Position numbers and translations under genes: made by a program. From NCBI GenBank assembly GCA_937883755.1, contig CAKZYA010000028.1:1-42857 (forward strand): DNA of 42,857 nt, given 5' to 3'. Shown piece after piece: positions 20,054 through 37,762 of this stretch. Numbering within the stretch: the stretch's first letter is position 1; each line of letters opens with the position of its first letter. Origin of the DNA: an uncultured Flammeovirgaceae bacterium. GTDB lineage: Bacteria; Bacteroidota; Bacteroidia; Cytophagales; Cyclobacteriaceae. Under the pieces are notes generated by a model, which saw nothing but the letters and a program-made list of their open reading frames with translations, was not told the DNA's origin and ran no database searches.

Positions 20054-22353
20054 CCCAACTTTCCTTTATTGATAAAATAGTCGGTTGTACAATAATTCTG
20101 TTGTTCCTGCTTTCTCCGAGGAGTGAATGCCAGCGCGTAGCCGAGTGGGACTTTTCTGTTCCGGCATCACAAGGTAACGATGAGTTGACTTTGGCTTGGG
20201 CAGGAGGGCTAAATGCGGTTCAATACAATAGCATTAGACTCAATGATGATAGTCAGGACGATTTATTACTGTTTGATCGATCGTCAAATACCCTTCATCC
20301 GTTTTTGCGCCAAAATAATCAGTGGATTTATGCTCCTGAATATGCTCCATTATTTCCGAATGACTTGCAAAGCTGGGTAGCATTGAAGGACTATGACCAA
20401 GATGGTGATCAGGATTTATTTACGGCCTCGGGCGGACGAGGAATATCAGTATATCGAAATGATCGTGACGAAGGTAACGAACTTCGCTGGACACTGATGA
20501 TCGAAACACTGAGAACGGTTGCATTTGCTTCCGGGGCTACGGTGACGCTTCAGGTAAACTCCACTGATTATCCGGCTATTGTAGATGTGGATGGTGATGG
20601 CGACTTAGATATTGTCAATTATAGTGTCATTGGCAGCGGTAATCTTATCCTTCATCAAAATCAAAGTATTGAACAATTTAATCGTCCCGATTCGCTAGTG
20701 TACCAAACTACCAATATTCGATGGGGTGAAGTGGAAGAGTGCGACTGCGAACTATTTGCTTTTGGCAATCAAACCTGCGATGATCTGAACAGCGATTCCC
20801 GGAATGGCGATTCCCGGAACGGCGGTTACCAAAACAATAATGCAAAAATTTTAGAAGAAGCTAAGCTAGAGCATGTAGGTGGAAAAGCTCTGCTTATAGT
20901 AGATGCTGATGGCGATGGTGATTTGGATGCTCTTTCGGGAGATGAAGGTTGCTACGGCACTGCTTTTTTAGAAAATCAACCAGTAAATAATCAACTAACG
21001 TTTCAGAGATTTACTACGAATTATCCGGAGAATACGCAGCCTGCTTCTTCTGTCTTTTTTCCCGGAGCCTATCTAGCCGATGTAAATGCTGATGGAGTAA
21101 AAGACTTGTTATTTTCGCCCAATGCTAGCACTAATGTAGGCAATAGTATTGATTTTAAAAGTTCCAGTTGGTGGTATCGTAATGATGGGACAGAGCAAAT
21201 GCCTAACTGGCAGTGGCAAACATCTGGTTTTCTGCAAGACGAAATGATTGATGTGGGTGAAAATGCTGTTCCGGCTTTGGCTGATTATGATGCTGATGGT
21301 GACCTAGATGTGTTCATCGGTAACCGAGGAAACCTACGAGCCGATGGGTTCTACGCCGGATTATACCTTTACGAAAACGTAGGAAATGCCCAGCAGCCTT
21401 CATTTCAGTTTGTGACCCGCAACTTCTTAAGCTTGACCGATTGGAAGCTTCAGGAGTTGAAGCCGTACTTTGCTGATATTAACCAAGATGGAAAAACAGA
21501 TTTACTCATCAGTGGGCGAGAGTCAGTATCGAGGGAGACGCGTTTATATGCTCTACTCAATCAAGCTGAGGCGGGTAGTCCGGTAGACTTTCAACCATCG
21601 CAACGCCAGCCACTTACTCTAGCCTTTCGGTCGGAAGATAATCTGGCTTTCTACGATGTAAACCAAGATCAGCAGATAGATGTACTAGTGAGTAAACAAA
21701 GCGGTAATCTGATCTATTATCAAAATCAAAGCCCTGATTTTCCACCTCAGTGGGTGCAGGAAGACGACGCTTTTGCCGGAATAGATCGTAATGCCCGAGG
21801 TCTATTCTTAGCTTCAGCGATTGTAGATATTGACGGAGATGGTTCAGCCGAAATAATAAGCACTAACACCAGTGGCAACTTACTCATTCGCCCAATAGAT
21901 ACAGATAGTGAGGAGGACATTGTTATAGACACAGTTATGGTACAAAACGCACTGTTGTCCAAGACAGTATCAGTGCAATTGGGAAGACAAAACTGGTTGG
22001 CTACCGGACAAATCATTAGCGGTAGCACAACTGTACTAATCGGTAGTCAGCGAGGCGGAGTTTCCCTGTTACAATTGAATCAAGGTGAGCCGACAGATGG
22101 AGAGAAAATTGCGTTGAATGTATTTCCTAATCCTGCAATTGATGCTAGTTTGACCACAGTGCGGGCTAATCGAGCGATAAGTAGCGTTCAGATAATTTCA
22201 GTGAATGGTCAAGTTGTACACGAACTATTTTTAGCTCAGCCTCTCAGCCAGCTAAGCCTAGAAACTGCGGTATTGCCGGTTGGTCTGTACATCGTTCGGG
22301 CATTTTTAGAGCAAGGTGGCGCGATAAGTACTAGGTTGCTGGTAAGAAATTAG
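20050..22353 (+). CDS. Secreted FG-GAP/VCBS repeat protein with T9SS type A sorting domain
   Basis: The 767-residue protein has a signal peptide (to about residue 28) and at least eight Asp-rich calcium-binding loops typical of FG-GAP/VCBS beta-propellers: DYDQDGDQD, DVDGDGDLD, DADGDGDLD, DVNADGVKD, DYDADGDLD, DINQDGKTD, DVNQDQQID and DIDGDGSAE. The C-terminal 75 residues (LNVFPNPAID to LYIVRAF and a basic end) form a type IX secretion sorting domain, so the protein is exported by the Por system and probably attached to the cell surface. Binding of glycans or partners is plausible but unproven. A tandem duplication at 20793-20822 sits in a loop. It overlaps the TauE/SafE gene by ATGA, and its stop codon overlaps that of uxuA by 4 bp. 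Confidence 0.9.
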   Translation: MTQLSFIDKIVGCTIILLFLLSPRSECQRVAEWDFSVPASQGNDELTLAWAGGLNAVQYNSIRLNDDSQDDLLLFDRSSNTLHPFLRQNNQWIYAPEYAPLFPNDLQSWVALKDYDQDGDQDLFTASGGRGISVYRNDRDEGNELRWTLMIETLRTVAFASGATVTLQVNSTDYPAIVDVDGDGDLDIVNYSVIGSGNLILHQNQSIEQFNRPDSLVYQTTNIRWGEVEECDCELFAFGNQTCDDLNSDSRNGDSRNGGYQNNNAKILEEAKLEHVGGKALLIVDADGDGDLDALSGDEGCYGTAFLENQPVNNQLTFQRFTTNYPENTQPASSVFFPGAYLADVNADGVKDLLFSPNASTNVGNSIDFKSSSWWYRNDGTEQMPNWQWQTSGFLQDEMIDVGENAVPALADYDADGDLDVFIGNRGNLRADGFYAGLYLYENVGNAQQPSFQFVTRNFLSLTDWKLQELKPYFADINQDGKTDLLISGRESVSRETRLYALLNQAEAGSPVDFQPSQRQPLTLAFRSEDNLAFYDVNQDQQIDVLVSKQSGNLIYYQNQSPDFPPQWVQEDDAFAGIDRNARGLFLASAIVDIDGDGSAEIISTNTSGNLLIRPIDTDSEEDIVIDTVMVQNALLSKTVSVQLGRQNWLATGQIISGSTTVLIGSQRGGVSLLQLNQGEPTDGEKIALNVFPNPAIDASLTTVRANRAISSVQIISVNGQVVHELFLAQPLSQLSLETAVLPVGLYIVRAFLEQGGAISTRLLVRN
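20793..20822 (+). repeat. 15-bp tandem duplication inside the FG-GAP gene
   Basis: Two adjacent copies of CGATTCCCGGAAYGG (one differing base) encode DSRNG DSRNG in a loop between propeller blades. The repeat keeps the frame and looks like a recent slippage event. Confidence 0.8.
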
Positions 22354-23348
22354 TTTTGTTTTAACGAGATGCCACCCTTCTCAAGAATACCTTTAATATA
22401 GCCGATAGCAAAGATTTTTCCGGTTATTTCGTAGCCCGCGGATAGTCCGCTGTCGAATGTCCCTTGTGATTCGCCGTACATAACCGGAGCGTGATCAGGG
22501 CGCAGCGGCCCATCAAACCCGTGCTTTGCGTAGTGCTGAAGTAGTTCGGCCATCGGAGTAGAACCGTTGTCATGAAAAGTTTCTCGAAAGTGGTACTTGT
22601 TCCCAGTCACATCGCGCAGGTGCAGGTAGTTGATCCGCTTTTCGTTGAGCCATCGAGCGGATAAAGCAAATAAGTTTTCATCCATTAGCTTGAAGGTGGC
22701 CTGACAGAAAGTGATTTTGTTGGCTGAAATTGGATAGCGCTGCCACACTTTCTCAAAGGCTTCCGCTGAAGTCAGAATTCGGCCTATTCCCTTTAGCGGG
22801 CTGATGGGCGGATCATCAGGGTGCAATGACATTTCCACTCCCGCTTCCTGGGCGACTGGCAAAACGGCATCCAGAAAATAGTGCAGATTATCCCATAGTT
22901 TTAATTCATCTATCCGCTGTTCTTCGGAAACGAGATCTTGCGCATCTTCATGATTAAACTCACTGACCAAAGCGCTGCCTCGCTCAACTACATTGGTACG
23001 AGTACGATACCAGCCTACGCTAGCCATAAAATTGTAACATAGCAGGCGAATTCCTAGTTGGCCCATGTTGCGGAGCATCTGCTGGTAGCGTTCAATCCAT
23101 TCGTCGCGATTGGCTAAGCCCAATTTGATTGATTGCATGTCAAACTGATCTCCTTCCAGACCGTGGAGTATGAATCCGACCTCACTAAATTCTTGCTGAA
23201 TAGAGCGCAAAGAGGCCAAGTCGTAAGGAGCGGGTTTACCCGATAGGCTGGGCATTGCTTTGGTGATGGCATGGTTTACTCCTATCTGTCGAGCCAACGT
23301 CCACTTACGCTCATCGTAGCGGGGTGGCAGTAGCATCGTGATGATCAT
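22350..23348 (-). CDS. uxuA: Mannonate dehydratase, divergent in one active-site motif
   Basis: The 332-residue protein is a UxuA-type TIM-barrel enzyme that dehydrates D-mannonate to 2-keto-3-deoxygluconate. Conserved blocks are HPDDPP (176-181), YLHLRDV (241-247), FHDNG (258-262) and GPLRPDHAPV (280-289), which carry the metal ligands (Mn2+ or Fe2+). The block normally reading LCxGSLG is FCQATF here (214-219), so only the Cys is kept; a changed substrate is possible. The protein is shorter than the 394-residue E. coli enzyme, mainly through missing insertions. It is the last gene of the uronate operon, one base after the RraA-fold gene, and converges on the FG-GAP gene with a 4-bp overlap. 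Confidence 0.88.
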   Translation of the reverse strand: MIITMLLPPRYDERKWTLARQIGVNHAITKAMPSLSGKPAPYDLASLRSIQQEFSEVGFILHGLEGDQFDMQSIKLGLANRDEWIERYQQMLRNMGQLGIRLLCYNFMASVGWYRTRTNVVERGSALVSEFNHEDAQDLVSEEQRIDELKLWDNLHYFLDAVLPVAQEAGVEMSLHPDDPPISPLKGIGRILTSAEAFEKVWQRYPISANKITFCQATFKLMDENLFALSARWLNEKRINYLHLRDVTGNKYHFRETFHDNGSTPMAELLQHYAKHGFDGPLRPDHAPVMYGESQGTFDSGLSAGYEITGKIFAIGYIKGILEKGGISLKQN

Positions 23349-23349
23349 G

Positions 23350-24093
23350 CTAGAAATACCCTCCTTTGTTCGTGATGTCTTTTACGCTTTGTCCGTCCTT
23401 GACCCAGCCAAAGATTTTCTTTTCATTCGCTTTAATCTCCTCGGCTCGCAGTAGCACATCGTAGGCAAGGTCGCGGGGCACCACCAAAACACCATCTACG
23501 TCGCCCAGCACGATGTCACCCGGTTTGATCATTACGTTTCCGATCTCCAAGGCAATCTGATAGTGGGTAATTAGGCAGCGACCCAGACTACCGTTAGACG
23601 AGCGGTACTTATAGAACACCGGAAAATCGGCCTCCAGAATCTGATGGGTATCTCGAATACCACCGTCCAAGCAAGCGGCCTTAATTCTTTTTCTCTTGGC
23701 TGTGGCGGTCATCACTCCCCCCCAAGAAGTAGACTTTTCGTCGTTGCTACTGTCCCATACCACAAACGCATTTTCCTGCATAGCATCCAACATCTGGGTA
23801 CGAAACTCCATTTCACCGGTTACCTTGGTATTCGGGGCACTTTTTACCGTAAAGGCAAAGCCAGCCACTGTCCGATACTCCCGCAGCGGTACGATGTGGT
23901 TGGGCAATGCCTGGTTCATCAGGCAGAACTCCCGCAATACGTCGTTGATGGCTCCGGTATATAACTTTTCGTAGCGAGTTAATAATTCTTTATCGGCAAT
24001 CGGAAACTTGACTTGCGATACACCTTCCTGCATCTCAATCAGTTTGTCCAGCTTCATCATGCTCACTTCTTTTTTATACTGTTCCCTACTCAT
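23350..24093 (-). CDS. RraA / HMG-aldolase family protein of the uronate operon
   Basis: The 247-residue protein belongs to the RraA fold family, which includes 4-hydroxy-4-methyl-2-oxoglutarate aldolases and the RNase E inhibitor RraA. Trp124-Gly-Gly, the DGGIRD motif at 143-148 (Arg147 and Asp148 match the pyruvate-binding Arg and metal-binding Asp of the aldolases) and PGDIVLGDVDGVLVVP (about 192-207) are clear. An extra N-terminal helix of about 30 residues precedes the core. Names such as demethylmenaquinone methyltransferase given to this family are misleading. Its one-base spacing to uxuA suggests a coupled step in uronate breakdown, such as cleavage of a 2-keto acid to pyruvate. That role is inference. 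A Met at codon 12 or 13 could also be the start. Confidence 0.85.
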   Translation of the reverse strand: MSREQYKKEVSMMKLDKLIEMQEGVSQVKFPIADKELLTRYEKLYTGAINDVLREFCLMNQALPNHIVPLREYRTVAGFAFTVKSAPNTKVTGEMEFRTQMLDAMQENAFVVWDSSNDEKSTSWGGVMTATAKRKRIKAACLDGGIRDTHQILEADFPVFYKYRSSNGSLGRCLITHYQIALEIGNVMIKPGDIVLGDVDGVLVVPRDLAYDVLLRAEEIKANEKKIFGWVKDGQSVKDITNKGGYF

Positions 24094-24217
24094 AGTTTAT
24101 TGTTTGATTGTTATTAGTCCATAGTCCACGGTCGATAGACCACAGTCGTTGATCCTTGGTCACTCACCCACCATACAGTGCTAACTATGTATTGCACATT
24201 GCTCATTATACATTGCT
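24094..24217. repeat. Low-complexity repeat spacer inside the uronate operon
   Basis: This is the only long gap (124 bp) in an operon where other spacers are 1-20 bp. On the minus strand it begins with GCAATGTATAATGAGCAATG, related to the run at 16.66 kb, then has a string of near-repeats (GACTGTGGTCTATCGACC, GTGGACTATGGAC). It has the look of a dispersed intergenic repeat inserted between two co-transcribed genes. No ORF or promoter was recognised. Confidence 0.5.
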
Positions 24218-25057
24218 TCACACTCCTGGGCAGGACAAGAATCCTCCGTCTACTGGCACGGTAATCCCCGTCACAAACCCGGCATTTTGATCGCTGATCA
24301 GCCAGTTCATACAGCCTAGTAACTCCCTAGCTTCCCCAAATCGGTTCATTGGTGTTTGCTGCGTGATATTTTGGGCACGTTCGGTTTGGCTACCGTCTTC
24401 ATTAAACATGATTTTTCGGCTGCGGTCGTTCAGGAAAAAGCCGGGCGCAATGGCGTTGACCCGAATATTAGCCGGGGCCAAGTACGCGGCCAGCCACTGG
24501 GTGAAACTGACGATGCCATTCTTGGCCATTGCGTAGGCAGCTACTTTGGTGATGGGCCGATAGCTGGTCATGGAGGCAAAGTTGATGATGCTGCCTCGCT
24601 TTTCTCGAGCCATATCTCGCCCGAATACAAAACAAGGAATCACCGTCCCCATCGTATTGATTTCAATGACACTCTGAAAAACACTCATATCCAAGTTGAA
24701 AAAACCCTTCACCGAGTCGTCATCTTCAAGCTCCCGCTCGTCGTAAGCCGGAATGTTGGTCAGTGCTTCACTTTGGTTACCACCGGCACCGTTGATCAGC
24801 ACCGAACATCTTCCGAGCTCCTGCTTAATAGTTTCGTACGCTTGCCGGACTGCTGCCTCGTCAGCCACATCGACAGTAACGGAAATGGCTACTTGGTCCT
24901 TAGCTCGAATTTCTTCCTCAACCAATTTGAGTTTTTGTAGTGTTCGGCCCACAAGTGCTACTCGGTATCCTTGCCCTGCCAGGTCTTTGGCCATGGCCGA
25001 GCAGAGCGTTCCGCCTGCTCCGGTTACTACGGCTACTTTATGATCGGATTGGTTCAT
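24218..25057 (-). CDS. uxuB: SDR-family D-mannonate (fructuronate) oxidoreductase
   Basis: The 279-residue short-chain dehydrogenase has a TGAGGTLCS nucleotide-binding loop at 12-20, LINGAGGNQ at 88-95, and the catalytic Ser162, Tyr175 and Lys179 (SMTSYRPI...YAMAK). The INGAGGN motif and long insert after it are typical of the SDR-type D-mannonate oxidoreductases of Gram-positive and Bacteroidota uronate clusters, which are unrelated to the long-chain UxuB of E. coli. It would interconvert D-fructuronate and D-mannonate with NAD(P)H. The last Gly of the usual TGxxxGxG is Cys19, a small deviation. It starts 20 bp downstream of uxaC in the operon. The symbol uxuB is used for the reaction, not for homology to the E. 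coli protein. Confidence 0.85.
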   Translation of the reverse strand: MNQSDHKVAVVTGAGGTLCSAMAKDLAGQGYRVALVGRTLQKLKLVEEEIRAKDQVAISVTVDVADEAAVRQAYETIKQELGRCSVLINGAGGNQSEALTNIPAYDERELEDDDSVKGFFNLDMSVFQSVIEINTMGTVIPCFVFGRDMAREKRGSIINFASMTSYRPITKVAAYAMAKNGIVSFTQWLAAYLAPANIRVNAIAPGFFLNDRSRKIMFNEDGSQTERAQNITQQTPMNRFGEARELLGCMNWLISDQNAGFVTGITVPVDGGFLSCPGV

Positions 25058-25077
25058 CTATTCGATTGTTCAATGGT

Positions 25078-26544
25078 TCAATTGCTATTATTGGTTATTC
25101 GTTCGGGCGGATTGCAATCCGCCCTTACTCTATTTCGTGTCTCATATTTCATATATTGTTGGGCATTTTCGTAGCAGAGGTTCTGCACTAGCTCCGACAG
25201 CAGATCAATGTCATTGGGCAAATGACCTTTTTCTACCCAGGTGCTCAATGTGTTGCACAATACCCGACGAAAATACTCATGTCGGGAGAAAGAGAGCGGG
25301 CTGCGCGAATCGGTGGTCATGCCCACAAACCGGCTGAGCATTCCGTAGTTGGCTAGCACCTTTAAGTGATGCTGAATGCCCTCGTAATGATCGTTATACC
25401 ACCAGGCTGGTCCTAGCTGGATTTTTCCGGCTACTCCGTCTTCGGCAAACGAGCCAGTTAGCGAGGCAAAAGCCTCGTAGTCAGATGGGTTTAGAGTGTA
25501 CAAGATTGTTTTAGGTAGTTGCCCCGCTTGTTCTAAGCTATCCAGAAACCGACATAAACTATCAATATCACAGGAATTACCAATACTGGCAAAACCTCCA
25601 GCTCCTCCGGTGATCCGTTTCAGACGAGTACTAGTACGCCGCTGCGCTCCAATGTGCAATTGCAGTATCCAGCCTTTTTCGGAGTAGGCTTTCCCCAGAA
25701 AATTCAGCAGATAGGAGGTAAGCTGAGCCCTCTCTTGTTCGCTAAGCTTATTCCCCAAAATCACCTGCCTGAAGTAGCTTACCGCTTGTCCCTCGCTCGG
25801 TAACTCAAAATAAAAATCAGGATCTAAGGCATGATCGGCTAGACGACAATCAGCTTGGTCAAAGTGATCAATTTTCTGTTGGATAGCCACCTGATAATCT
25901 TCCAAATTGCGAATGGTTGTGTTGACTTTCTTCTCCAGTTCTCTGAGCCACGGACGGTACTGCTGGCTAGAAAAAGCCAGTATCGTGTCTCCCCGTAACG
26001 ATGGGTAGACATTCACCGAATGGGTTAAGGTCGCTTGCTGGTGGGGCTGTAAATCGTCCAGTAAATCGTCGGAAGTAGACATCGTTTCTACTCCCCAGCG
26101 CTTAATGAGGTTAGCCATCCGAAATTCTTCTTGCGGTAACTGTTCTTGACAAGTTTGCCAAATTTGGGAGGCATTCTTCGGGGTTAGCACCTCTTCTATT
26201 CCAAACATCTGTTGTAATTCTAAAGCACTCCAGTGGTATAATGGGTTGCCTACCGCCTGCGGTAATGTATGCGCCCAGGCCAAAAATTTATCGTAGTCCG
26301 ATGCGTCGCCCGTAATTTTAGCTTCGGGTACCCCACTAATCCGCATCAAGCGATGCTTGTACGGGTCGAGGCTGAGCCAAAGCTGGGTAAGATTCTCATA
26401 ACGTCGGTTCTCCGCCAGAGCCACCGGATCAATATGATTGTGGTAATCAATAATGGGTAGCTCGCGGGCCACGCCGTGGAACAGCTCCCGAGCCGTTGGA
26501 TTAGATAGAAGAAAATTATCATGTATGAATTTCTTATCTCTCAT
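25078..26544 (-). CDS. uxaC: Glucuronate isomerase
   Basis: The 488-residue protein is a full-length UxaC (about 470 in E. coli), a metal-dependent amidohydrolase-fold isomerase that turns D-glucuronate into D-fructuronate and D-galacturonate into D-tagaturonate. Metal-site motif DYHNHIDP lies near residue 34. NLTQLWLSLDPYKHRLMRISG, GNPLYHWSALELQQMFGI-type sequence and GMTTDSRSPLSFSRHEYFRR follow in the family order. In E. coli the first motif reads DYHCHL, so the C to N change is mild. It is the second gene after the symporter, 15 bp away, in the uronate operon. Whether galacturonate is also handled is unclear, since uxaA and uxaB are not seen. Confidence 0.95.
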   Translation of the reverse strand: MRDKKFIHDNFLLSNPTARELFHGVARELPIIDYHNHIDPVALAENRRYENLTQLWLSLDPYKHRLMRISGVPEAKITGDASDYDKFLAWAHTLPQAVGNPLYHWSALELQQMFGIEEVLTPKNASQIWQTCQEQLPQEEFRMANLIKRWGVETMSTSDDLLDDLQPHQQATLTHSVNVYPSLRGDTILAFSSQQYRPWLRELEKKVNTTIRNLEDYQVAIQQKIDHFDQADCRLADHALDPDFYFELPSEGQAVSYFRQVILGNKLSEQERAQLTSYLLNFLGKAYSEKGWILQLHIGAQRRTSTRLKRITGGAGGFASIGNSCDIDSLCRFLDSLEQAGQLPKTILYTLNPSDYEAFASLTGSFAEDGVAGKIQLGPAWWYNDHYEGIQHHLKVLANYGMLSRFVGMTTDSRSPLSFSRHEYFRRVLCNTLSTWVEKGHLPNDIDLLSELVQNLCYENAQQYMKYETRNRVRADCNPPERITNNSN

Positions 26545-26559
26545 TTCCTATTTCTTATT

Positions 26560-28260
26560 TTATGCTGTTTTTTTAGCCGTTGGTTTATCCGTAGACTTCA
26601 TGCCTAGTCTTTTTCGTTGTGCCTGCCAGTAAACTAACCCACTTAGCGTGCAACATACGACTCCTACCGTTAACGTCAGTTGACCACTTAGCATACCGAT
26701 AGAGGGCAGGCTCATGGTGATAAACAAAAGTCCAGTACACACCAAAGCAATAGCAAATAGCAACCGGATTGAACGATAAAACCCCGGATCAATCACTGCC
26801 TGTTCAATGACAGGTACTGGAGTTTGCAACCGCTGAAAGAACTGATTTACCGCCTGCTCTTGTTTCGACTTTCTCTGACCAACGTAACCTGAAACGAAGA
26901 ATACGATCAGGCATACCGCAATGGCGGTAAGGGTAGATACCTCCCACGAAAAGTACGGTAAATAATTTAGTAGTAATCCGGTAGCTACTCCCGCCACTAA
27001 GCTGGCGATGGCTCCGCTGGCTTTTGGCCGAGGGAAAAGTACCCCCATCACCACCGGAATAATTAGTGGAATAGCGAATAAGGCAGTAAGCAGTTTGTTC
27101 GCTTCAAACGCCCCGCCGAACACGCCGATAAAGAACGCACCACCGATCACAAGGCCCCCCACCAACAGAGTAACCACCCGAGCGACGTTCATCAGCTTGC
27201 GGTCGGAGGCGGTCGGATTTACTTTCCTTTTATAAATATCATTGGTAATCACATTAGCTACTACGTTATATTCTGAGTCGAGTGAGGACATGGTGGCGGC
27301 GAACATAGCAGCCAGCAGAATGCCCATGATGCCGGTGGGCAACACCTCTAGCGCTACGCTCACGTAGGCCATTTCGGGATTGCTTAGTTCGGGTAAAATC
27401 ACTTGGGCAGCAACAGGAGGCAGTAGGAATAGCAAGGGAAAAATCAGGAACAAAACCGCGCTAGCTACACCCATCTTTCGCCCGGCGCGTTCGTTCTTCA
27501 CGCTGTAGAACCGCTGAATGAACGCCCAGTTACCATTAAATTTGATGGCAATCATTATGTAGTAGGTTAGCAAATAAAACGGTGCGCCCTTCGGGCCATT
27601 AAACAGCGTGAAGTGCTCGGGTACGGTATTGATAATTTCACCCAATCCCCCCGCAGCCTGAAAGGTGAGGGGAATCAGAATGAGTGTAGAACAGATCAGT
27701 ACGATAAACTGCACCGCATCAGTCACAATGACCGCCCAAAGTCCGCCTGTAACAGTATAAATCCCGACGATCACCCCAGCAGCAATAATGGCTACATCCA
27801 GGCTCAGCGGAGTGGCGGCGGCGATGAATAAGCCGATGGCGTACAAGCGTACCATATTTTCCAACAGGCGGAATAGTACCCCTCCCCAGGAGAATACCTG
27901 CCGGACGGAAGCGTTGAATCGTACTTCCATAAACTCCACCGGAGAAGAAATACCGGCTCGTCGCCATCGTTTGGCCAAATAGGCCGCCGCAATCAGCATG
28001 GGTGGCACCGATGACCAGATAATCAGTAGGGCGACCAATCCGTATTCGTAGGCAATGCCCGCGTGGGCCACAAACACAAAGGTGCTAAACATCGACATAA
28101 AGTTGCTAATGCCCCCTGCGAACCAAGGAATAGTGCCTCCGCCTTTGAAGTACTGACCAATATCTTTGACGTACCATCCGAAGAAGATGCCAATTCCCGC
28201 CATAAATGCCATGTAGATGGCAATGGCGGCATAATCCAGCGTTTGAATGGTATTCGTCAT
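26560..28260 (-). CDS. Sodium/solute symporter (SSS family), probable uronate importer
   Basis: The 566-residue polytopic protein has about 13-14 membrane segments. Its SSS-family features include a Gly-rich opening segment (FKGGGTIPWFAGGISNFMSM), the FSTFVFVAHAGIAYEYG core of TM1/TM2, and NGNWAFIQRFYSVKNER before TM6. A long Lys-rich cytoplasmic tail follows at 485-520. It should import a sugar or sugar acid with sodium. Leading the operon uxaC-SDR-RraA-uxuA, it is probably for glucuronate or a related uronate, although its sequence alone does not set the substrate. Its start is only 30 bp from the divergent IclR gene. Confidence 0.88.
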   Translation of the reverse strand: MTNTIQTLDYAAIAIYMAFMAGIGIFFGWYVKDIGQYFKGGGTIPWFAGGISNFMSMFSTFVFVAHAGIAYEYGLVALLIIWSSVPPMLIAAAYLAKRWRRAGISSPVEFMEVRFNASVRQVFSWGGVLFRLLENMVRLYAIGLFIAAATPLSLDVAIIAAGVIVGIYTVTGGLWAVIVTDAVQFIVLICSTLILIPLTFQAAGGLGEIINTVPEHFTLFNGPKGAPFYLLTYYIMIAIKFNGNWAFIQRFYSVKNERAGRKMGVASAVLFLIFPLLFLLPPVAAQVILPELSNPEMAYVSVALEVLPTGIMGILLAAMFAATMSSLDSEYNVVANVITNDIYKRKVNPTASDRKLMNVARVVTLLVGGLVIGGAFFIGVFGGAFEANKLLTALFAIPLIIPVVMGVLFPRPKASGAIASLVAGVATGLLLNYLPYFSWEVSTLTAIAVCLIVFFVSGYVGQRKSKQEQAVNQFFQRLQTPVPVIEQAVIDPGFYRSIRLLFAIALVCTGLLFITMSLPSIGMLSGQLTLTVGVVCCTLSGLVYWQAQRKRLGMKSTDKPTAKKTA

Positions 28261-28290
28261 TTATGTATTAGATTCTCTATCTTCGTGCTC

Positions 28291-29025: not shown

Positions 29026-29032
29026 TGAGCGG

Positions 29033-29100: not shown

Positions 29101-29101
29101 C

Positions 29102-31303
29102 TTAGGAAAACCTTTCAACCATCAATTGATGCACTCGCTTAGTACTTTCTATCATCCCGACAATATTCATTTTCTTATCGCCCCGGTACCAGTGCTCCCA
29201 CTTCTCACCTTCGGAAGCAATTTTCTTAGCATCTTCTACTTGCTCCAGAAATTCTATCGCTCGCTGCAAGTGCATACTGGCCGCCATCGTATTATTTTCG
29301 TCCATTGCTAAGCGAGATAAAATCACGGCTTCCAGCCAACGATTCAGACCCAGCAATATCTTATGCTGAGCTACTAGGTTGGTTTGGAAAAACTGCAAAG
29401 TGTCGCCAGTTAGTTGGTCAGCTGCTTGCACCAAACTACCCTCCATTCCCTCCAGGCTTTGAATTTGTTGTTGAAGTAGTGTCAGTACTTCGTCAGGTGA
29501 CAAGCTATTAGCGGGGTGCATATCGGATAGATAACGGCTTCCCCAGGTGGATTCTACCGTAGGCGTTGCCTCTTGCGCCAATATTTCCTGATATTTTTCG
29601 GGTTGTTCCACTTGCATTTTGAGGCGATGCAGCACTTTATAACCATACGAACGGGTTTGCCCGTCCAGCAATAGCGGTACGCTCGAAGTTTCGTGCATCT
29701 GGTAGCTGTCGAAAAATCGTTGGTAGAGCTTATGTACCGGTTCGGCCTGCTCCCCAAAGTGTGCCGCAAACCACCGCGACATAAACCCCTCTACTTCAAA
29801 CGACTGCATGTCGTACAGCATTTCGGCAGAGGCTTCTATACCTAAGATGAATTCCCGCACGTTAGATACATTCATGATCGCGTAATCCGAAGCCTGATGT
29901 TCAACGGCTTCTTGGAACATGTCGTAGGTTTTTTGCGGCGGAATAGCTTGAGCTAGGTGCGGCCCTGAACCCCATAATTGATGATGATAGTAAACTCCAT
30001 ACTGATTTGCCGAATTACGCTCAGTTTCGTAAAAGTCCGCTTGCCACCGCCAGCCAGGACTGTTATCGGCGAAGATAATAATCATACTGTCGGGAAAGGT
30101 AAGATGCCCAGCCTGATTGAGCCCCGCACCTTCAGCCCACAATGTAGTTGATAAGAGTGGTCGCTCGCGCTGATCTAGCGTATCAACAATTTCGCTTTGT
30201 ACCTGGATAGCTTCGGAGATAATACGTCCCCGATCAGCATCAGATTGGGGTACGCCGGGATCGGCCAGCCACATCGGGCGGTCGGCAATGCCCCGCAGGC
30301 CAGTCTGCCAGATCACATTGGGGTACTTCGCCCAGCGTTGAGCATACTCCTGCCAGGTTTGGGTAATCTTCTCAGGTTCGCTGTAAAAGGAGAACAATGG
30401 TTCTTCACCCTGTTCTTGCCAATAGTTTTGGTAGCCAAAGGCACTTACGCCCAGTGGCTCGATATGGTGCATAGAAACGTATAAGCCTCGTTGGGCCGCT
30501 TCGGCGACCAGTCGCTCTTCGGGCGGATTACGAATATCGACAAAGCTAGCGGGGATTACTAAGTTCATGCGTAAGCGCAGGGCTGTTTCTAGCACGGGGC
30601 GAATCACCTCCGGGTGCACCACCTGGCTGTAGAAACGATAATCAATGTTCCGGGTACCACCACCATTTTTCCATTCGGTGAGCAAATCCTCGTCGTTGAT
30701 AAACCAGCCCCGGAAGCGGAAGGTCGGCTCACCCTGCACAATACGTACTTCTTGCCAGGCGAGCTGCTCGCGTTTCGCGGGCTCCAGCCCGCTCCAGTAG
30801 TAGGTAGGATCAATACCCAGATATTCCTCTAAAAAGTGATAGATGGCAAACATGGTTGCCCGTTCGTCGCTGCCCGCCATCAGCAAATGCTGCTTACCGC
30901 TGAACGATACATTCTGCACTACGTATTCTTCCCATTTTCCTAATAAGGTATCCAAATCAGGGTGTAATTGGACGGCTTCGCTCCGTTGGGCTTCATCTGC
31001 CAAATTAAACACCAGCACTTGTAAGGCGGTGGTATCTAACTTTTCGGAAACCAGTAGTTGTTTTCCGGTAATCTTCGCAATGTCTGACCGAAGATCATCC
31101 ACCGCTAAGCGAATAGGATCGGTCGTACCTGCTGGTAGATAAATATTGGCTGATTGTCTATCATCAACCAGTATCAAGACGGGAGCAGCGTCTTGACAGG
31201 CAACTACTGTACTGATAGCTAATCCTAGCATCAATATCACTCTTAGCTGCCTAGTCCTAGCTTTCAAATGCAGTAATTTATACGTCATACAAATTCTGTT
31301 CAT
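29102..31303 (-). CDS. GH115-type alpha-glucuronidase lipoprotein
   Basis: The 733-residue protein carries a lipoprotein signal (VILMLGLAISTVVAC, Cys after VVA). An N-terminal sugar-binding-type domain is followed by the core starting at TFRFRGWFINDEDLLTEW, a hallmark of family GH115. QTGLRGIADRPMW, FADNSPGW, YGVYYHHQLWGSG and MNVSNVREFILGIEA appear in the order of that family. GH115 enzymes remove (4-O-methyl-)glucuronic acid from xylan side chains. The protein ends soon after the helical part, so the C-terminal Ig-like region of longer GH115 enzymes is absent. It starts 1 bp after the GH-A gene stop codon. Released glucuronate would feed the uxa/uxu genes. Some deviation from the family motifs leaves its activity open. 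Confidence 0.75.
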   Translation of the reverse strand: MNRICMTYKLLHLKARTRQLRVILMLGLAISTVVACQDAAPVLILVDDRQSANIYLPAGTTDPIRLAVDDLRSDIAKITGKQLLVSEKLDTTALQVLVFNLADEAQRSEAVQLHPDLDTLLGKWEEYVVQNVSFSGKQHLLMAGSDERATMFAIYHFLEEYLGIDPTYYWSGLEPAKREQLAWQEVRIVQGEPTFRFRGWFINDEDLLTEWKNGGGTRNIDYRFYSQVVHPEVIRPVLETALRLRMNLVIPASFVDIRNPPEERLVAEAAQRGLYVSMHHIEPLGVSAFGYQNYWQEQGEEPLFSFYSEPEKITQTWQEYAQRWAKYPNVIWQTGLRGIADRPMWLADPGVPQSDADRGRIISEAIQVQSEIVDTLDQRERPLLSTTLWAEGAGLNQAGHLTFPDSMIIIFADNSPGWRWQADFYETERNSANQYGVYYHHQLWGSGPHLAQAIPPQKTYDMFQEAVEHQASDYAIMNVSNVREFILGIEASAEMLYDMQSFEVEGFMSRWFAAHFGEQAEPVHKLYQRFFDSYQMHETSSVPLLLDGQTRSYGYKVLHRLKMQVEQPEKYQEILAQEATPTVESTWGSRYLSDMHPANSLSPDEVLTLLQQQIQSLEGMEGSLVQAADQLTGDTLQFFQTNLVAQHKILLGLNRWLEAVILSRLAMDENNTMAASMHLQRAIEFLEQVEDAKKIASEGEKWEHWYRGDKKMNIVGMIESTKRVHQLMVERFS

Positions 31304-31304
31304 A

Positions 31305-32729
31305 CTAATTACTGCTACTGTGCGGAATCAGCGATTTATCGGCAATAAGCACCGGAGAGTCGTAAACGGGAATGTTGCTAAACGTGTACTGGGTGCCTTT
31401 CTGCTGAATATTTTCCTCGGGAATCTTGCGCACCTCGCCTGTGCGCAAATCTACCCATACTGTTTCGTTGAAATTTCCACCAGAAACACTGAAGTCCATG
31501 GTCTGGTATGCTTCCGAATCGGACGGCACATTGCCATCCATCCAGAGCGTGATGACTTGCTGCCCCGTAGCTTTATGTTGATAGGCAAAGCACGAAAGCG
31601 AGGAATCGGCGGAGGTGGTATATGCATAGTTCGGGACCCTAGCCAACGTGTTGTCAAAAATGGCTGCCAGGTGCTGTAAAGCGTAGTAAACTGGCTTGGC
31701 TTTGACGACTTTTTTAGTCGTATCCGATTCCAGTGTGCCCTTTCGATTGATTTCGTCGGGGTAGTTCAAATCCACGATACTGAAGTAGGAGGTTTCAATA
31801 TCCCGCCCCAGGTCGCCCAGCATACGGCGTAAGGCCCACTTGCTCTGAGAGGTTTCGCTCCAGGGATAATTCCTCAGGGCCTTCGTGTTGCGGTACTGCG
31901 AAGGTGCTCCATTTTCGCCCTGCCGAATGGTAATGCGCGGATCGTAGCGATTCACCACCGCTCGTAGTTCCAGCACCTCTTCGTATACTTCGTCAGGGTT
32001 CGGTCGGTAGGGGTGATAGGTGATTTGATCGACCAAATGCAGTTTGCTTCGCTTTTGCATTTCGGCCAAGAAACCATCGGCTAATTCCGGATGAATCCCC
32101 GCGATAGCCATTGCCAGTAGTCGCGCCTTCGGCTGCACCGAGCGGATAGCTTCCGCGGTGGCGATGTACAAATCAGCGTATTCGTCTACCGTATTTTTCT
32201 TACTATGGATTCCCTCATTCCAGATTTCATACTCATCTACCACTTCTTTATAGCGAGCGGCGAGTAGCTTAGCCCAGGCGGCGAAGGACGCGATAGAAGC
32301 TGAGTCTTTAGGCATAGCTGCGCCTAGTTTGGTTCCGCCACTATACAGTGGATTGCCGTAGCTGACGTTAAGCCACGGCTCTACTCCTTGCCCTACCATA
32401 TCGTAAATAATGTTATCCAGCCAAGCAAAATTGTAGTACCCTTTTTGGTACTCAGTCTTGGCCCAACCGGCTTGCAAACGAGCTTTTTTGATGCCCAATG
32501 GCCCCAGATATTCTTTCCAATTGTTATAAATGGTATAGTCACGATCCATCGTCTCAGCTCCCACTGACCAATTGGAGGCTTGAATGTCTTTTGCGTAACG
32601 GGAGGAAACGTTGCCTAGATGGCTAAACTCAGACGTCTGCGCTAGCACGGTTGAGTAGGACAAAGTCAGAAGAAATAATATGCTTGATAGTAATCGTTTG
32701 TCCATGATAGGATGATCCATAATTTTCAT
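31305..32729 (-). CDS. Secreted clan GH-A glycosidase, GH39-like
   Basis: The 474-residue protein has a signal peptide (residues 10-31, LAQ cleavage) and a TIM-barrel. Asn171-Glu172 in YEIWNEG form the acid/base motif of clan GH-A, and Glu272 in IRQGENGAPSQ is the probable nucleophile, 100 residues later. The barrel also shows KARLQAGWAKTEYQKGYY and ITYHPYRPNPD. A small beta domain closes the protein (VWVDLRTGEVRKIPEEN). The pattern is nearest to GH39-like beta-xylosidases, but other GH-A families are possible, so the linkage cut is uncertain. The start at 32729 immediately follows the stop of the esterase remnant (TAAATG); Met9 at 32705 is an alternative that begins the signal peptide more neatly. 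Confidence 0.72.
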   Translation of the reverse strand: MKIMDHPIMDKRLLSSILFLLTLSYSTVLAQTSEFSHLGNVSSRYAKDIQASNWSVGAETMDRDYTIYNNWKEYLGPLGIKKARLQAGWAKTEYQKGYYNFAWLDNIIYDMVGQGVEPWLNVSYGNPLYSGGTKLGAAMPKDSASIASFAAWAKLLAARYKEVVDEYEIWNEGIHSKKNTVDEYADLYIATAEAIRSVQPKARLLAMAIAGIHPELADGFLAEMQKRSKLHLVDQITYHPYRPNPDEVYEEVLELRAVVNRYDPRITIRQGENGAPSQYRNTKALRNYPWSETSQSKWALRRMLGDLGRDIETSYFSIVDLNYPDEINRKGTLESDTTKKVVKAKPVYYALQHLAAIFDNTLARVPNYAYTTSADSSLSCFAYQHKATGQQVITLWMDGNVPSDSEAYQTMDFSVSGGNFNETVWVDLRTGEVRKIPEENIQQKGTQYTFSNIPVYDSPVLIADKSLIPHSSSN

Positions 32730-32992: not shown

Positions 32993-32999
32993 TTTTACG

Positions 33000-34676
33000 C
33001 TAGTAACCTTCGTTCTGCTCCAGTATGGCATTAATATTTGCCTCAATCTCACTGGCGGGAATTGGCCAGACTTGGTGAAAATCCTGGATTTCATCTCCGT
33101 TATGTGGGTTGTATAATCGTACTCGCTCTACCAGTTTCCCCAATCGCTGCAAAGTAATCCGACGATCTTCTTCAATACTAAGTTCACGAGCCCGTTCATC
33201 CAAAATATAATCTATTGTCACTTCACCAGGGCTAACAGGAGTAGCATTGACCCGATTTCGTACCACGTTGATGTCTGCTGCAGCACTCGTTTGATCTCCT
33301 CGACCCAGATAAGCCTCAGCCCGCAGCAAATAGGTCTCCGCTAATCGCATATAGTACTGATCAGCATAGGTAGAGCCTCCGGCGGCGGTAAGCAAACCTA
33401 AATCTCGGTCAGCGAACAAGGCATCGGGGTGCCGCCCTGGCGTGGTTACTTTGCTCAGCCAGGGATACCATCTCCAACTTTGGGCCATCAAATTAGGACC
33501 GGGATACTCCACCGCACTGGAATCAAACCAAGCAGAAGTAGGATCATCGTAGCGAAAATCGCGGATATAGTTGATGGGAGAATTACGGAGATCATTATCA
33601 AAATCAGTTTCCCATAAAGTGTTCTCGAAAAAGCTGGTGGGACGCATAAAAGATACTCCCCGCCCTCCGGTATTGAGGTCAGACCGCCACCCTAACACGG
33701 CTGGGTTACCATCCGGGTCTTGTAGTGTCCAACTGGCTGGTACATGGTTACGCTCTAGGGTATTACCTGCTTGATTAGTCGAGGTCAGATATCCGCCCGG
33801 CACATCGGCTTCCATTTGCGCTACCCAAATAGCCTCACTATTACTACCGGCCCGGTTTTGGTTGCCTTGTCGGAACAGATCATAGTACACATCGCCCGGT
33901 TCGCTCGCTCGTGAGCCGAAGCGCTCGGTCATGAGCGCTGTATTAGGATCATCAATCACTACGGTTGCTGCGCTAATAGCGGCATCCCAGTTTTGCTGAG
34001 CAAGGTATGTCTCGGCTAGTAGTTGCTGGGCTACTAGATTAGACACTCGCCCATCGGCAGCCACATCAGCAATGCCGGGTAGGTTATCAGCCGCAAATGT
34101 AGCATCAGCTACAATCTGAGCTAGCACCTCTTCTCGACTGGCCCGGGTAAAATCGGTTTGAGGCGAAGTAACTTCTTCTAAAAGAATGGGCACACCGCCG
34201 TAGAGATGCACCAAATAACGGTAGGCCCACCCCCGGAAGAAGCGGGCTTCAGCCTCAATGAGTTGCTGCTCCTCTTCCGTAAGTACACTATTTTGAGCCA
34301 AGCGATCTAGGATAGTATTGGCACTTGCCACGATTTTGTACAACCGATCCCAGTGCCACTCAGGCATATTGCTGGTAGGGTTCAATGTGATGGCGTAATC
34401 ACCAAAACGATTATTGGCTGCGGATTCACGGGCATCGAACATAATGTCAGTACCGTAGAGATAGGCCCGTGCCTGATCTGGAGTGTTAAACCGATAATTA
34501 CGTAGTTGAGCATATAAGTCAAAAACGCTACTCTCAAAATTCTCAAAGCTAACAAAGGCGTTGCTGGGGCTGAAGAAGTCTAACGGTTCTTCTTTTAGAA
34601 ATTCATCTTCGTTACAGGCAGTAGATAATACAACTAACGCAACGAGAATTATCCAATATCTATAAGTCGTTTTCAT
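33000..34676 (-). CDS. susD: SusD/RagB-family surface glycan-binding lipoprotein
   Basis: The 558-residue protein starts with a lipoprotein signal, MKTTYRYWIILVALVVLSTAC, with Cys21 followed by NEDE, an acidic surface-export signal seen in Bacteroidota. The mature region begins LKEEPLDFFSPSNAF. The TPR-like helices (EARFFRGWAYRYLVHLYGGVPI) and the C-terminal block (YYMRLAETYLLRAEAYLGRGDQ) mark the SusD family. It caps the SusC transporter and binds oligosaccharides for import. An upstream ATG at 34688 adds four residues; the inner ATG is used because it begins the signal peptide. It starts 17 bp after susC and is followed by the esterase remnant. Confidence 0.95.
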   Translation of the reverse strand: MKTTYRYWIILVALVVLSTACNEDEFLKEEPLDFFSPSNAFVSFENFESSVFDLYAQLRNYRFNTPDQARAYLYGTDIMFDARESAANNRFGDYAITLNPTSNMPEWHWDRLYKIVASANTILDRLAQNSVLTEEEQQLIEAEARFFRGWAYRYLVHLYGGVPILLEEVTSPQTDFTRASREEVLAQIVADATFAADNLPGIADVAADGRVSNLVAQQLLAETYLAQQNWDAAISAATVVIDDPNTALMTERFGSRASEPGDVYYDLFRQGNQNRAGSNSEAIWVAQMEADVPGGYLTSTNQAGNTLERNHVPASWTLQDPDGNPAVLGWRSDLNTGGRGVSFMRPTSFFENTLWETDFDNDLRNSPINYIRDFRYDDPTSAWFDSSAVEYPGPNLMAQSWRWYPWLSKVTTPGRHPDALFADRDLGLLTAAGGSTYADQYYMRLAETYLLRAEAYLGRGDQTSAAADINVVRNRVNATPVSPGEVTIDYILDERARELSIEEDRRITLQRLGKLVERVRLYNPHNGDEIQDFHQVWPIPASEIEANINAILEQNEGY

Positions 34677-34693
34677 ATGAATTGTCATAGGGG

Positions 34694-37600
34694 TTATAAT
34701 GATATATTTAAGCCCACGGTAAAACCTCGCATCACGGGGAGGGCACTTCTATTTCGGTTATTATCACGATTATCATTATTGTTTCTATCATCTTGTCGGC
34801 GTTGGTTCGGCCCTAGCCCTTGCCCGGTTTCGGGGTCCCAACCCTCCCAATCAGTAAAAGTGAGCAGGTTTTTACCACTGACAAATAGTTTAGCCTCCTG
34901 TAGTCCAATTCGGTCGAGCAAGCCCTGGCCGAGGGTGTAAGACAGCGAAATATCTTGTAGGCGGACAAAGCTACGAGCGAAGAAGCGCTGCTGGCTAATG
35001 GCCGCATCAGGGCCGGGTCGTCGGTACGTGGCTCCCGGATTGGAGGGCGTCCAGTAGTCCACTTCTGCAAACCAGTTGCTGCTTTGGGCATTACCAGGCG
35101 TACTGTAGCCACCATCCCAAGGGTTATTTAGGCTCAGGTAGCCATCACTGCCTCCTTGAATCGATTTAATGAAAAATTTGAAGGCAAAATTCTTATACCG
35201 TAGGGTATTCTGAATACCAAACTGATAGGACGGTTCTCGGTAGCCCAAAATCTGGCGGTCGTCCTGAGGGGTAATTTGTCCATCGTCGTTTAGGTCACGT
35301 AAACGATACAATCCGGGGGCAAAGCCATCCGGAATATTTTCATCACCTACCTGCCAAATCCCATCAATTACGTAGCCATATACTGCACCGACAGGCTCGC
35401 CAATGAACAGTCCGTTGGCGATGAGATCATCTTCTTGCCCGTCGCCATCACGATCTAAGCCCAGTAAACTTTCAATTCGGTTGGTATTGGTAGCAAAGTT
35501 CGCTTGGATATCCCAACTAAAATTTGTGCCTCGCACTGCACTGGCATTGACTAGCATTTCTAATCCCGTATTACTGATTTCGCCTACATTCGATCTGATC
35601 TGTTGAAAACCGGTAATTTCAGGGAGTACAAAATCCCACAGCAGGTCGGTCGTACTGGATTGATAGTAGTCAACGCTACCTGATAAGCGGCGGTCGAGCA
35701 ACGTAAAGTCGACCCCTACGTTAATGCCTACGGTTCGCTCCCAACTTAAATTAGGGTTGGCCAATGAGGCAACTCGCTGGCCGTTTACCGTACTACCGCC
35801 ATCCCCAAAGAGATACTGATTTCCTCCCCCTGAGCTAATACGGGCTAATGAACTGTAGCGATCAGTGAGGTTACCATTAATACCATAGCTCGCCCGAAGT
35901 TTCAAGAAGTTAATCGCTTCTACATTAGCTAAGAAATTTTCTTCTGAGAGTACCCATCCTAAGCCAAGCGAGGGAAATATTCCCACCTTATTTCTCTCAG
36001 AAAAACCACTAAATCCATCGCGGCGGAGGGTGGCCGTTAGCAAGTATTTTTCGCGAAAGCCGTAGTTAATCCGACCCATCTGGTAGAGGTACCTTTCTTC
36101 CCAGGCATCAGAAAATATTTGTTGAATCACCGCTTGCTCCAAGCTATTATACGAAAGGGCTAGATTAGTAAAATTGCTCCCTTCGGCTCGGGTTTCATTA
36201 AAACTGATGCGGTTAAATCCGTAAAGTAAGGTTACATCAATTTCGTGATTCTCTCCTAGTTCTCGATTGTAGGTAATGATATTATCTACGACTAGGTCAT
36301 AGGTGGCTCGATTGATTTTAATGGCTCGCCCGGCTTGTCCGTTGTCAAATGGATTGGCATTACCCAGTTCCTCCCAGCGGTAGTTATTGCTAAAGTTTAC
36401 CCGATAGCTAAGTCCTGGGATTTGCGGAACACGAACTTGAGCGTAGAAGATTCCCGAGAGGTTATTGCGTAAATCGCGATCATCGGCAGCACTCTGTAAA
36501 AAAGGGTTTAAGCGATTGTCACCTAACGGATTCACGACGAGTTCTCCGTTTTCATCATAGGGAGTGACTAGCGGGCTCATCTGAGGAATCTGGCTTAGTA
36601 TGGGACTTTCACCGGAGAAATCAGAAAATGCCCCAAACGTATTGGCTCCCACTGTGAGCCAGTCGGTGATTTCAGTGTCGACGTTGACTCGGGCTGTAAT
36701 TCGGCGGTAGGTATCGTTCAGCATCCATCCTTTCTGGTCGGTATATCCTCCCGAAAGAAAGTAAGACGTATGTTCACCACTGCCTCGTATGCTGAGTTGG
36801 TGGTCGGTGATATAACCGGGGTCGGTCACTTCATCGTACCAACTGTAGTCCGTACCATTGGCAAATCCTTCCAGCAAAGGGGGAAATAAGCCGGTATCGT
36901 TTTCAATCGCCCAATCAGGGTTTTCCTGTATGAAGTCAGGGGCTAGATAACCATTTTCCCATTCTACGTCACGCACTCCCTTCAAATAACCTTCGCGCCC
37001 CAAGGGCGTAAGTTCATTGGCGGGTGACTGCGTAGTGTAAAAGCCAGAATAGCTGATGACGGGTGCCTGAGCACTTTTACCACTCTTGGTAGTAACAATC
37101 ACCACTCCGTTCGCCGCTTGGGCGCCGTACACCGCCATGCTGCTCGGGTCTTTGAGCACATCTACGGAAGCAATATCATTAGGATTTAAGTCGGCTAACC
37201 GCCCACGGTAGTATACCCCATCGAGAATGATTAGCGGGTTCTGATTCCCGTTAATACTCGCTTGCCCCCGCACCTGAATAGTGGGTTCTTCGCCTGCAGA
37301 CGCCGCCTGCCCGATGTCGATACCGGGGGTAGAACCACTGAGTGACTGTAAAATATTGGTGTTTGGGGCTTCCTCAAAGGCTTCTAGTGGGGCAGAAACC
37401 ACGGCACCGGTTACGTCTTCCCGCTTTTGGGTACCGTACCCCACAACCACAATTTCTGATAAAGACTGGATATCCGGGGAAAGCGAAATATCAATCTGGC
37501 TGCGGTTGTTGATGGGTACTTCCAGAGTCTCGTACCCTACTGACGAAAAAACCAGCGTGTCGGACGAGCTAATCTGACTCAGTCGGAATTGCCCATTTAA

Positions 37601-37762
37601 ATCAGTGATAGTCCCCGTACTGGTTCCTTTGATAAGAATACTCACTCCCGGGAGTGGGCTATCATTTTCTAGGTCGGTGACTGTTCCCTGTACTTGGGAA
37701 AAAGCTGCTGTAGACAGTAAGCTTAGAATGAGGAAGTTGAAGGTTGTACATAATGTTTTCAT
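34694..37762 (-). CDS. susC: SusC/RagA-family TonB-linked outer-membrane transporter
   Basis: The 1022-residue protein has a signal peptide (1-22) and a carboxypeptidase-regulatory-like domain (about 24-98, GTVTDLENDSPLPGVSILIKG). The SusC signature VVVGYGTQKREDVTGAV follows, then a plug domain with the TonB-linked RGQASINGNQNPLIILDGVYY-type motif, then a 22-strand barrel ending in MRGFTVGLNISL. It imports oligosaccharides across the outer membrane with energy from TonB. An Asn/Asp/Arg-rich stretch (34745-34800) sits just before the last strand and is unusual. It is the first gene of the polysaccharide-utilisation operon. No anti-sigma factor, ECF sigma factor or hybrid two-component regulator lies next to it. 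Confidence 0.95.
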   Translation of the reverse strand: MKTLCTTFNFLILSLLSTAAFSQVQGTVTDLENDSPLPGVSILIKGTSTGTITDLNGQFRLSQISSSDTLVFSSVGYETLEVPINNRSQIDISLSPDIQSLSEIVVVGYGTQKREDVTGAVVSAPLEAFEEAPNTNILQSLSGSTPGIDIGQAASAGEEPTIQVRGQASINGNQNPLIILDGVYYRGRLADLNPNDIASVDVLKDPSSMAVYGAQAANGVVIVTTKSGKSAQAPVISYSGFYTTQSPANELTPLGREGYLKGVRDVEWENGYLAPDFIQENPDWAIENDTGLFPPLLEGFANGTDYSWYDEVTDPGYITDHQLSIRGSGEHTSYFLSGGYTDQKGWMLNDTYRRITARVNVDTEITDWLTVGANTFGAFSDFSGESPILSQIPQMSPLVTPYDENGELVVNPLGDNRLNPFLQSAADDRDLRNNLSGIFYAQVRVPQIPGLSYRVNFSNNYRWEELGNANPFDNGQAGRAIKINRATYDLVVDNIITYNRELGENHEIDVTLLYGFNRISFNETRAEGSNFTNLALSYNSLEQAVIQQIFSDAWEERYLYQMGRINYGFREKYLLTATLRRDGFSGFSERNKVGIFPSLGLGWVLSEENFLANVEAINFLKLRASYGINGNLTDRYSSLARISSGGGNQYLFGDGGSTVNGQRVASLANPNLSWERTVGINVGVDFTLLDRRLSGSVDYYQSSTTDLLWDFVLPEITGFQQIRSNVGEISNTGLEMLVNASAVRGTNFSWDIQANFATNTNRIESLLGLDRDGDGQEDDLIANGLFIGEPVGAVYGYVIDGIWQVGDENIPDGFAPGLYRLRDLNDDGQITPQDDRQILGYREPSYQFGIQNTLRYKNFAFKFFIKSIQGGSDGYLSLNNPWDGGYSTPGNAQSSNWFAEVDYWTPSNPGATYRRPGPDAAISQQRFFARSFVRLQDISLSYTLGQGLLDRIGLQEAKLFVSGKNLLTFTDWEGWDPETGQGLGPNQRRQDDRNNNDNRDNNRNRSALPVMRGFTVGLNISL

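Follow-up and report, generated by a model that had tools for sequence, protein, structure and literature searches.

How is 2-keto-3-deoxygluconate (KDG) broken down by a glucuronate locus that carries an RraA-like gene in place of the KDG enzymes KdgK and KdgA? This question is raised by contig C28 of an uncultured Flammeovirgaceae bacterium (CAKZYA010000028.1; genome of 7.6 Mb, 99% complete), which is analysed here at its full length of 42857 bases and referred to as the window. Nine minus-strand genes between 22350 and 37762 make up a glucuronate-glycan utilisation locus with its own sugar-acid pathway. All nine were found as listed in a preliminary description of this DNA, which had given the order as SusC/SusD, a GH115 alpha-glucuronidase with a clan GH-A glycosidase, a symporter, UxaC, a short-chain dehydrogenase/reductase (SDR) and UxuA. 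The gene in question (23350..24093, minus strand; PF03737 97.2 bits, cut-off 24.5) encodes an RraA-like protein of 247 amino acids (aa), for which a role as 2-keto-3-deoxy sugar-acid lyase is proposed. It is followed by the gene of a short UxuA-family mannonate dehydratase (332 aa; 22350..23348, minus strand; PF03786 230.7 bits); a single base (23349) separates the RraA stop codon from the uxuA ATG, which bears out the 1-bp spacing described before. Judged by sequence and gene context, the RraA-like protein may be a metal-dependent lyase acting on the product of the dehydratase, here KDG, and most likely an aldolase for the unphosphorylated acid; we give this reading slightly less than an even chance. 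We infer the substrate from the linkage of the protein to two unrelated dehydratases and, more weakly, the aldol reaction.

In the proposed pathway, GH115 would release the uronate, and UxaC, the SDR and the short UxuA would convert glucuronate to KDG. The RraA-like protein would then act on KDG by class II (metal-dependent) retro-aldol cleavage, yielding pyruvate and D-glyceraldehyde without ATP; Arg147 would stabilise the pyruvate enolate and Asp148 would bind the metal. Genes for capture, hydrolysis, uptake and conversion are all present, in line with the earlier view that the locus takes glycan-bound glucuronate to KDG. As in the Ashwell hexuronate pathway (UxaC, UxuB, UxuA, KdgK, KdgA), KDG is reached through UxaC, a mannonate oxidoreductase and a dehydratase of the UxuA family, whereas the window has an SDR-type reductase, a short UxuA and, in the operon, RraA instead of KdgK/KdgA.

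The linkage was studied in relatives from a scan of genome contigs, of which the best 80 of 151 were kept. These 80 proteins are 71-87% identical over almost their full length and come mostly from Bacteroidota and Verrucomicrobiota (one locus is titled KSB1, one Chlorobiota). Contexts, which rest on BLAST clusters named by Pfam matches of single representatives, were assigned to 74 of the 80 loci; L081, L082, L083, L088, L105 and L108 were omitted because their RraA frame was lost in the picking of open reading frames. A dehydratase gene lies near RraA in 65/74 loci. It is UxuA in 43 and an enolase-superfamily enzyme in 22; no locus has both and nine have neither. If the two were independent, the probability of zero overlap would be 5.5e-12, kinship being ignored. 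Since the two dehydratases have unrelated folds, what unites them is probably that both form a 2-keto-3-deoxy acid.

Two contexts were distinguished. In context A (32/74 loci), RraA lies within 9 kb of UxaC, the glucuronate enzyme; in the representatives looked at, GH10, GH115, GH39-like, GH3 and SASA esterase genes were found, and these Pfam matches suggest glucuronoxylan as the glycan. Context B (33/74 loci) mainly comprises a sugar-1-dehydrogenase-like SDR, an SGL or beta-propeller lactonase, an MFS transporter and a dehydratase (enolase-superfamily in 22, UxuA in 11), with neighbours that include GH13-like and PL8 genes. The remaining nine loci have another or an incomplete context. For the enolase-superfamily partner (GlucD-like), the top NCBIfam model is glucarate dehydratase, although at 152 bits it stays far below the cut-off of 828.7; its KLK, DPNG, EDP, ATNM and MHSG stretches are kept and presumably fit the glucarate-dehydratase subgroup. 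Contexts A and B interleave on the RraA tree, where label A changes 10 times, at least nine of them forced by well-supported branches, and the closest relative of the window RraA by identity (L030, 87%) has context B. One enzyme thus seems to serve both contexts, and a single substrate class for the whole subfamily is the simplest reading. In the non-phosphorylative Entner-Doudoroff pathway, KDG is split into pyruvate and glyceraldehyde while unphosphorylated. If the RraA-like protein cleaves KDG, the logic would be the same, and context B resembles that pathway in its aldose-dehydrogenase-like SDR, lactonase and dehydratase; the KDG aldolase there, however, belongs to the class I DHDPS family and not to RraA.

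Ten of the 80 loci (L031, L034, L035, L039, L040, L054, L055, L056, L064 and L086) carry genes resembling FAD/FeS D-2-hydroxyacid dehydrogenases, a count without background rate made with a hidden Markov model (HMM) built from eight of these ten. The dehydrogenase gene directly follows RraA in L054, L055 and L056, and LutABC-type lactate genes are found near RraA in L040 and L051. The C3 product might be oxidised to glycerate or lactate, which would suit an unphosphorylated aldol split; the dehydrogenase linkage is otherwise unexplained.

The second line of comparative evidence is the position of KdgA. No KdgA gene was detected within 5 kb of UxaC in any of the 32 context-A loci (25 of them with 5 kb on both sides), and three of the 32 have one within 12 kb, as searched with an HMM from the loci's own KdgA proteins. 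For canonical UxaC in a sample of the class, PF01081, the family of KdgA, was found within 5 kb in 13/20 cases and within 12 kb in 14/20 (distances read by eye from the coordinates). This control consisted of 22 UxaC matches minus the window's own and a remote one (G125:C10, 238.5 bits, no KdgA near). Fisher's test for 0/32 against 13/20 gives 1.2e-07, a value that ignores kinship and compares samples and detection methods that differ. The RraA subfamily is patchy in the class (2/149 genomes at E 1e-20), and the 149-genome sample with its two carriers served only as the UxaC-KdgA control and not for a co-occurrence test.

The active site was compared across 75 sequences, the window included, whose alignment has 81 invariant columns; Gly126, Arg147, Asp148, Gln151 and Glu224 are identical in 75/75. 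Aligned with the HMG/CHA aldolase of Pseudomonas putida F1 (3noj; phmmer score 46 bits), Arg147 and Asp148 lie opposite Arg123 and Asp124, and Gly125 opposite Gly101; Glu224 comes to lie opposite Glu199 only by an ungapped hand extension two residues beyond the end of the alignment. In that aldolase, the pyruvate enolate requires Arg123, and the metal is bound by Asp124 and Glu199 (PMC5065237). The two proteins share the RraA fold family by sequence and the Arg-Asp pair, and the proposed window substrate is likewise a 4-hydroxy-2-keto acid, although it belongs to a sugar-acid pathway and that of the Pseudomonas enzyme to an aromatic one. Metal-enolate chemistry of the RraA-like protein is therefore plausible as far as its residues can tell. 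In contrast, the motif and the model scores do not support its membership in the characterised aldolases: all NCBIfam aldolase equivalog cut-offs were missed (NF006731 74.6 bits vs 179; TIGR02798 67.7 bits vs 304.5).

Several observations weigh against an aldolase for KDG. The aldolase Arg-Asp pair, which the preliminary description had reported as intact, is indeed kept in 75/75 sequences, but the counterpart of Asp102 of HMG/CHA aldolase, 21 residues before the Arg, is Gly126 in all 75, so that the aldolase motif (D-X20-R-D) is incomplete. An alternative motif, G-X20-R-D-X2-E/D, does not fit fully either, Gln151 standing at its Glu/Asp position; a literature search for the two motif names found nothing. 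In 3/74 loci (L034 and L035, with identical RraA, and L089), KdgK/KdgA genes are found no more than 9 kb from RraA, which counts against a strict replacement, and in L039 KdgA is located within 12 kb of UxaC. The KDG enzymes are also retained genome-wide: PF01081 is kept in 39 of the 40 sampled genomes that carry this RraA (L049 and L062 omitted, being from the same genome as L032), and a KdgK homologue (E 1e-25) in 38 of 39 other genomes, with an identity of at least 47% in 35. No genome came out as lacking KDG enzymes of both kinds; the single exceptions are G014 without PF01081 (KdgK not searched there) and G191 without a KdgK homologue (PF01081 not searched there). No aldehyde dehydrogenase was found in the loci by a regular-expression scan, which is a weak test, and the fate of glyceraldehyde is therefore unexplained; a Weimberg-type route was rejected on the same scan. 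Finally, FlDet, a purified RraA-family enzyme of Flavobacterium UMI-01, turns 2-keto-3-deoxy-glucarate into alpha-ketoglutaric semialdehyde, releasing water and CO2, and is described as active on this substrate alone and inactive on KDG (PMC8563752). Since FlDet has the same fold and is a dehydratase/decarboxylase, and since Gly126 replaces the Asp, the Arg-Asp pair alone is no proof of an aldolase. The earlier suggestion that the RraA-like protein acts on KDG is backed by the dehydratase linkage and the KdgA-free UxaC loci; the suggested aldol cleavage is weakened by the motif.

The preliminary description had also stated that KdgK and KdgA are absent and that the pathway stops at KDG, and had asked for a search of the rest of the genome. 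Whole-genome searches gave no PF01081 and no PfkB (KdgK) match on C28, so the statement holds for the window contig, but two PF01081 genes (C59 and C60) are located elsewhere, as are seven PfkB genes, which account for eight matches because one frame of C33 has two. On C60, a second, canonical UxaC gene (621 bits, cut-off 387) is followed by a KdgK-like gene, whose best NCBIfam matches do not reach the cut-offs, and then by KdgA (369 bits, cut-off 275). The organism hence need not stop at KDG, and the RraA route would run alongside a complete KdgK/KdgA route with genes outside C28. The idea of RraA as a substitute for missing KDG enzymes holds at the locus but fails for the genome as a whole. 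A genome-wide loss of the KDG enzymes is ruled out by these matches together with the 39/40 and 38/39 genomes mentioned above.

Among the readings of the RraA-like protein, we consider an aldolase likeliest, followed by a dehydratase similar to FlDet, which is unlikely. Such an enzyme would enolise at C3 and drive out the hydroxyl of C4; the product would be a diketo or unsaturated acid, and no C-C bond would be split. FlDet shows that an RraA fold can dehydrate a 2-keto-3-deoxy acid (PMC8563752) and, like the window protein, is an RraA-family protein in the uronate catabolism of Bacteroidota with a 2-keto-3-deoxy sugar acid as substrate; the best score of the context-B enolase-superfamily partner against glucarate dehydratase, far under the cut-off as it is, points the same way. 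Compared by its description, FlDet differs in its length (237 aa), its reported N-terminus and its inactivity on KDG (PMC8563752). KDG, the product of the upstream enzymes in the window, has no carboxylate at C6, and the aldehyde dehydrogenase needed for a route over alpha-ketoglutaric semialdehyde did not appear in the regular-expression scan.

The boldest reading, and a very unlikely one, is that of a C4 etherase. GH115 glucuronidases usually release 4-O-methyl-glucuronate, from which UxaC, the SDR and UxuA would yield 4-O-methyl-KDG, and this compound could not undergo retro-aldol cleavage by KdgA. The RraA-like protein would expel methanol from it and add water, delivering KDG to the KdgK/KdgA encoded elsewhere; MurQ removes an ether analogously, in that case a lactyl ether. 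The retention of KdgK/KdgA, the locus's own divergent UxaC and a UxuA without the canonical stretch would thereby be explained, and the GH10, GH115, GH39-like, GH3 and SASA esterase genes of context A are in keeping with it. That the dedicated UxaC, SDR and short UxuA are methyl-tolerant versions is slightly less probable still. No sign of a methylated sugar was seen here, the context-B loci with their aldose oxidation and GH13-like and PL8 neighbours are left unexplained, and this reading does not predict the neighbouring 2-hydroxyacid dehydrogenase genes. If C4 methyl removal were true, it would provide a route for 4-O-methyl-glucuronate; we know of none, and a literature search found no paper on one. 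A non-catalytic role, regulatory or accessory like that of E. coli RraA for RNase E or as a UxuA helper, accords with the family name and the one-base gap between rraA and uxuA but is highly improbable given the score of 22.9 bits against the RNase E regulator cut-off of 136, the pairing with two unrelated dehydratases and the 81 invariant columns including Arg147 and Asp148.

Two candidate identities of the protein were rejected. The score cited above was obtained with model NF006875 and rules out an RNase E regulator. The window RraA clearly belongs to the same RraA subfamily as PDB 5ir2 (E 2.2e-114 over 222 residues), which is deposited as 'Cellulase', whereas the window sequence and neighbourhood give no hint of a glycosidase; as a literature search found no paper on 5ir2, the cellulase identity has no support in sequence, neighbourhood or literature. 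A structure prediction from 32 close relatives (mean predicted local distance difference test score 53.4, predicted template-modelling score 0.51) was not used. Further RraA-family genes were observed. The same genome encodes two (308 and 315 aa, with signal-peptide-like starts) at C33:26761-32676 (L003, L004), each adjoining a mandelate-racemase-type gene, so that RraA again stands beside an enolase-superfamily enzyme, and a fourth protein (262 aa, signal-peptide-like start, 27% identical to the window's) at C63:67987-68535 (L001). At L041:17095-19995, another RraA-like gene (313 aa), whose cluster is present in five loci, directly precedes a GH88/DUF4861 fusion.

The window UxuA is, by its sequence, a short divergent form. 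It scores 147.5 bits against the TIGR00695 equivalog cut-off of 199.55 and is without a stretch of about 45 residues that canonical UxuA has. Mannonate dehydratases of known structure align with it (best E 1.4e-39). His176, Cys215, His243, Asp285 and His286, which we take to be active-site residues, are kept in all five longer forms compared and in 95% or more of the short ones. UxuA-family matches occur in five genes of the genome, including two full-length forms (C22 and C4), and the C22 UxuA adjoins an SDR that shares 41% identity with the window SDR. The SDR gene of the locus (24218..25057, minus strand; 279 aa) encodes a D-mannonate oxidoreductase (fructuronate reductase; NF006132, PRK08277, 338.7 bits, cut-off 281). 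UxaC glucuronate isomerase (25078..26544, minus strand; 488 aa) passes the NCBIfam equivalog cut-off (NF002794 485 bits, cut-off 387) but is divergent, with 558 bits compared with 654-706 bits for 20 canonical UxaC. The sodium:solute symporter (SSS) encoded upstream (26560..28260, minus strand; 566 aa; TIGR00813 195.4 bits, cut-off 184) is likely responsible for uronate uptake.

The outer-membrane and glycosidase genes begin with a SusC/RagA TonB-linked receptor (34694..37762, minus strand; 1022 aa; TIGR04056 777.5 bits, cut-off 368.25) and a SusD-like glycan-binding lipoprotein (33000..34688, minus strand; 562 aa; PF07980 92.7 bits, PF14322 77.7 bits); as expected of a SusCD polysaccharide utilisation locus, this pair stands beside glycosidases. 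The GH39-like (clan GH-A) glycosidase (31305..32729, minus strand; 474 aa; PF01229 36.4 bits, cut-off 26) has PslG and GH39 beta-xylosidases as its PDB matches (best E 5.9e-07), and the GH115 alpha-glucuronidase (29102..31303, minus strand; 733 aa; PF15979 197.8 bits) matches the xylan alpha-1,2-glucuronidase 7pug (E 5.8e-29). The locus had been described as one self-contained block. Its genes and order stand, but an IclR-family regulator gene that had been overlooked (28291..29025, plus strand; 244 aa; PF01614 79 bits, PF09339 37.5 bits) lies in the 840-base gap between the symporter and GH115 genes. Because of this opposite-strand gene, the block consists of two minus-strand units, SusC-SusD-GH39-like-GH115 and symporter-UxaC-SDR-RraA-UxuA. 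Relatives of the regulator (34-46% identity) occur in 15 related loci: nine of context B with the enolase-superfamily dehydratase, three of context B with UxuA, two of context A and one unclassified.

A gene at 20050-22353 (plus strand) converges on uxuA, the two 3' ends sharing four bases; its product contains FG-GAP repeats and a sorting domain of type IX secretion (29.7 bits, cut-off 23). Elsewhere in the window, a DeoC/LacD-type aldolase gene (13400-14062, minus strand) adjoins a fused aspartokinase-homoserine dehydrogenase gene (14093-16615, minus strand), and two S41/PDZ peptidase genes are located at 17560-19218 and 40830-42461 (both plus strand).

Literature searches found no paper joining RraA to 2-keto-3-deoxygluconate aldolase, and none on the RraA family with glucuronate in Bacteroidetes or on RraA-like proteins with polysaccharide utilization. 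The analysis ties a conserved RraA subfamily, whose one solved structure is named 'cellulase', to the final reaction by which Bacteroidota and Verrucomicrobiota degrade sugar acids. If the protein does cleave KDG, it would represent a KDG aldolase with the RraA fold, and the annotation of many glycan loci would change.

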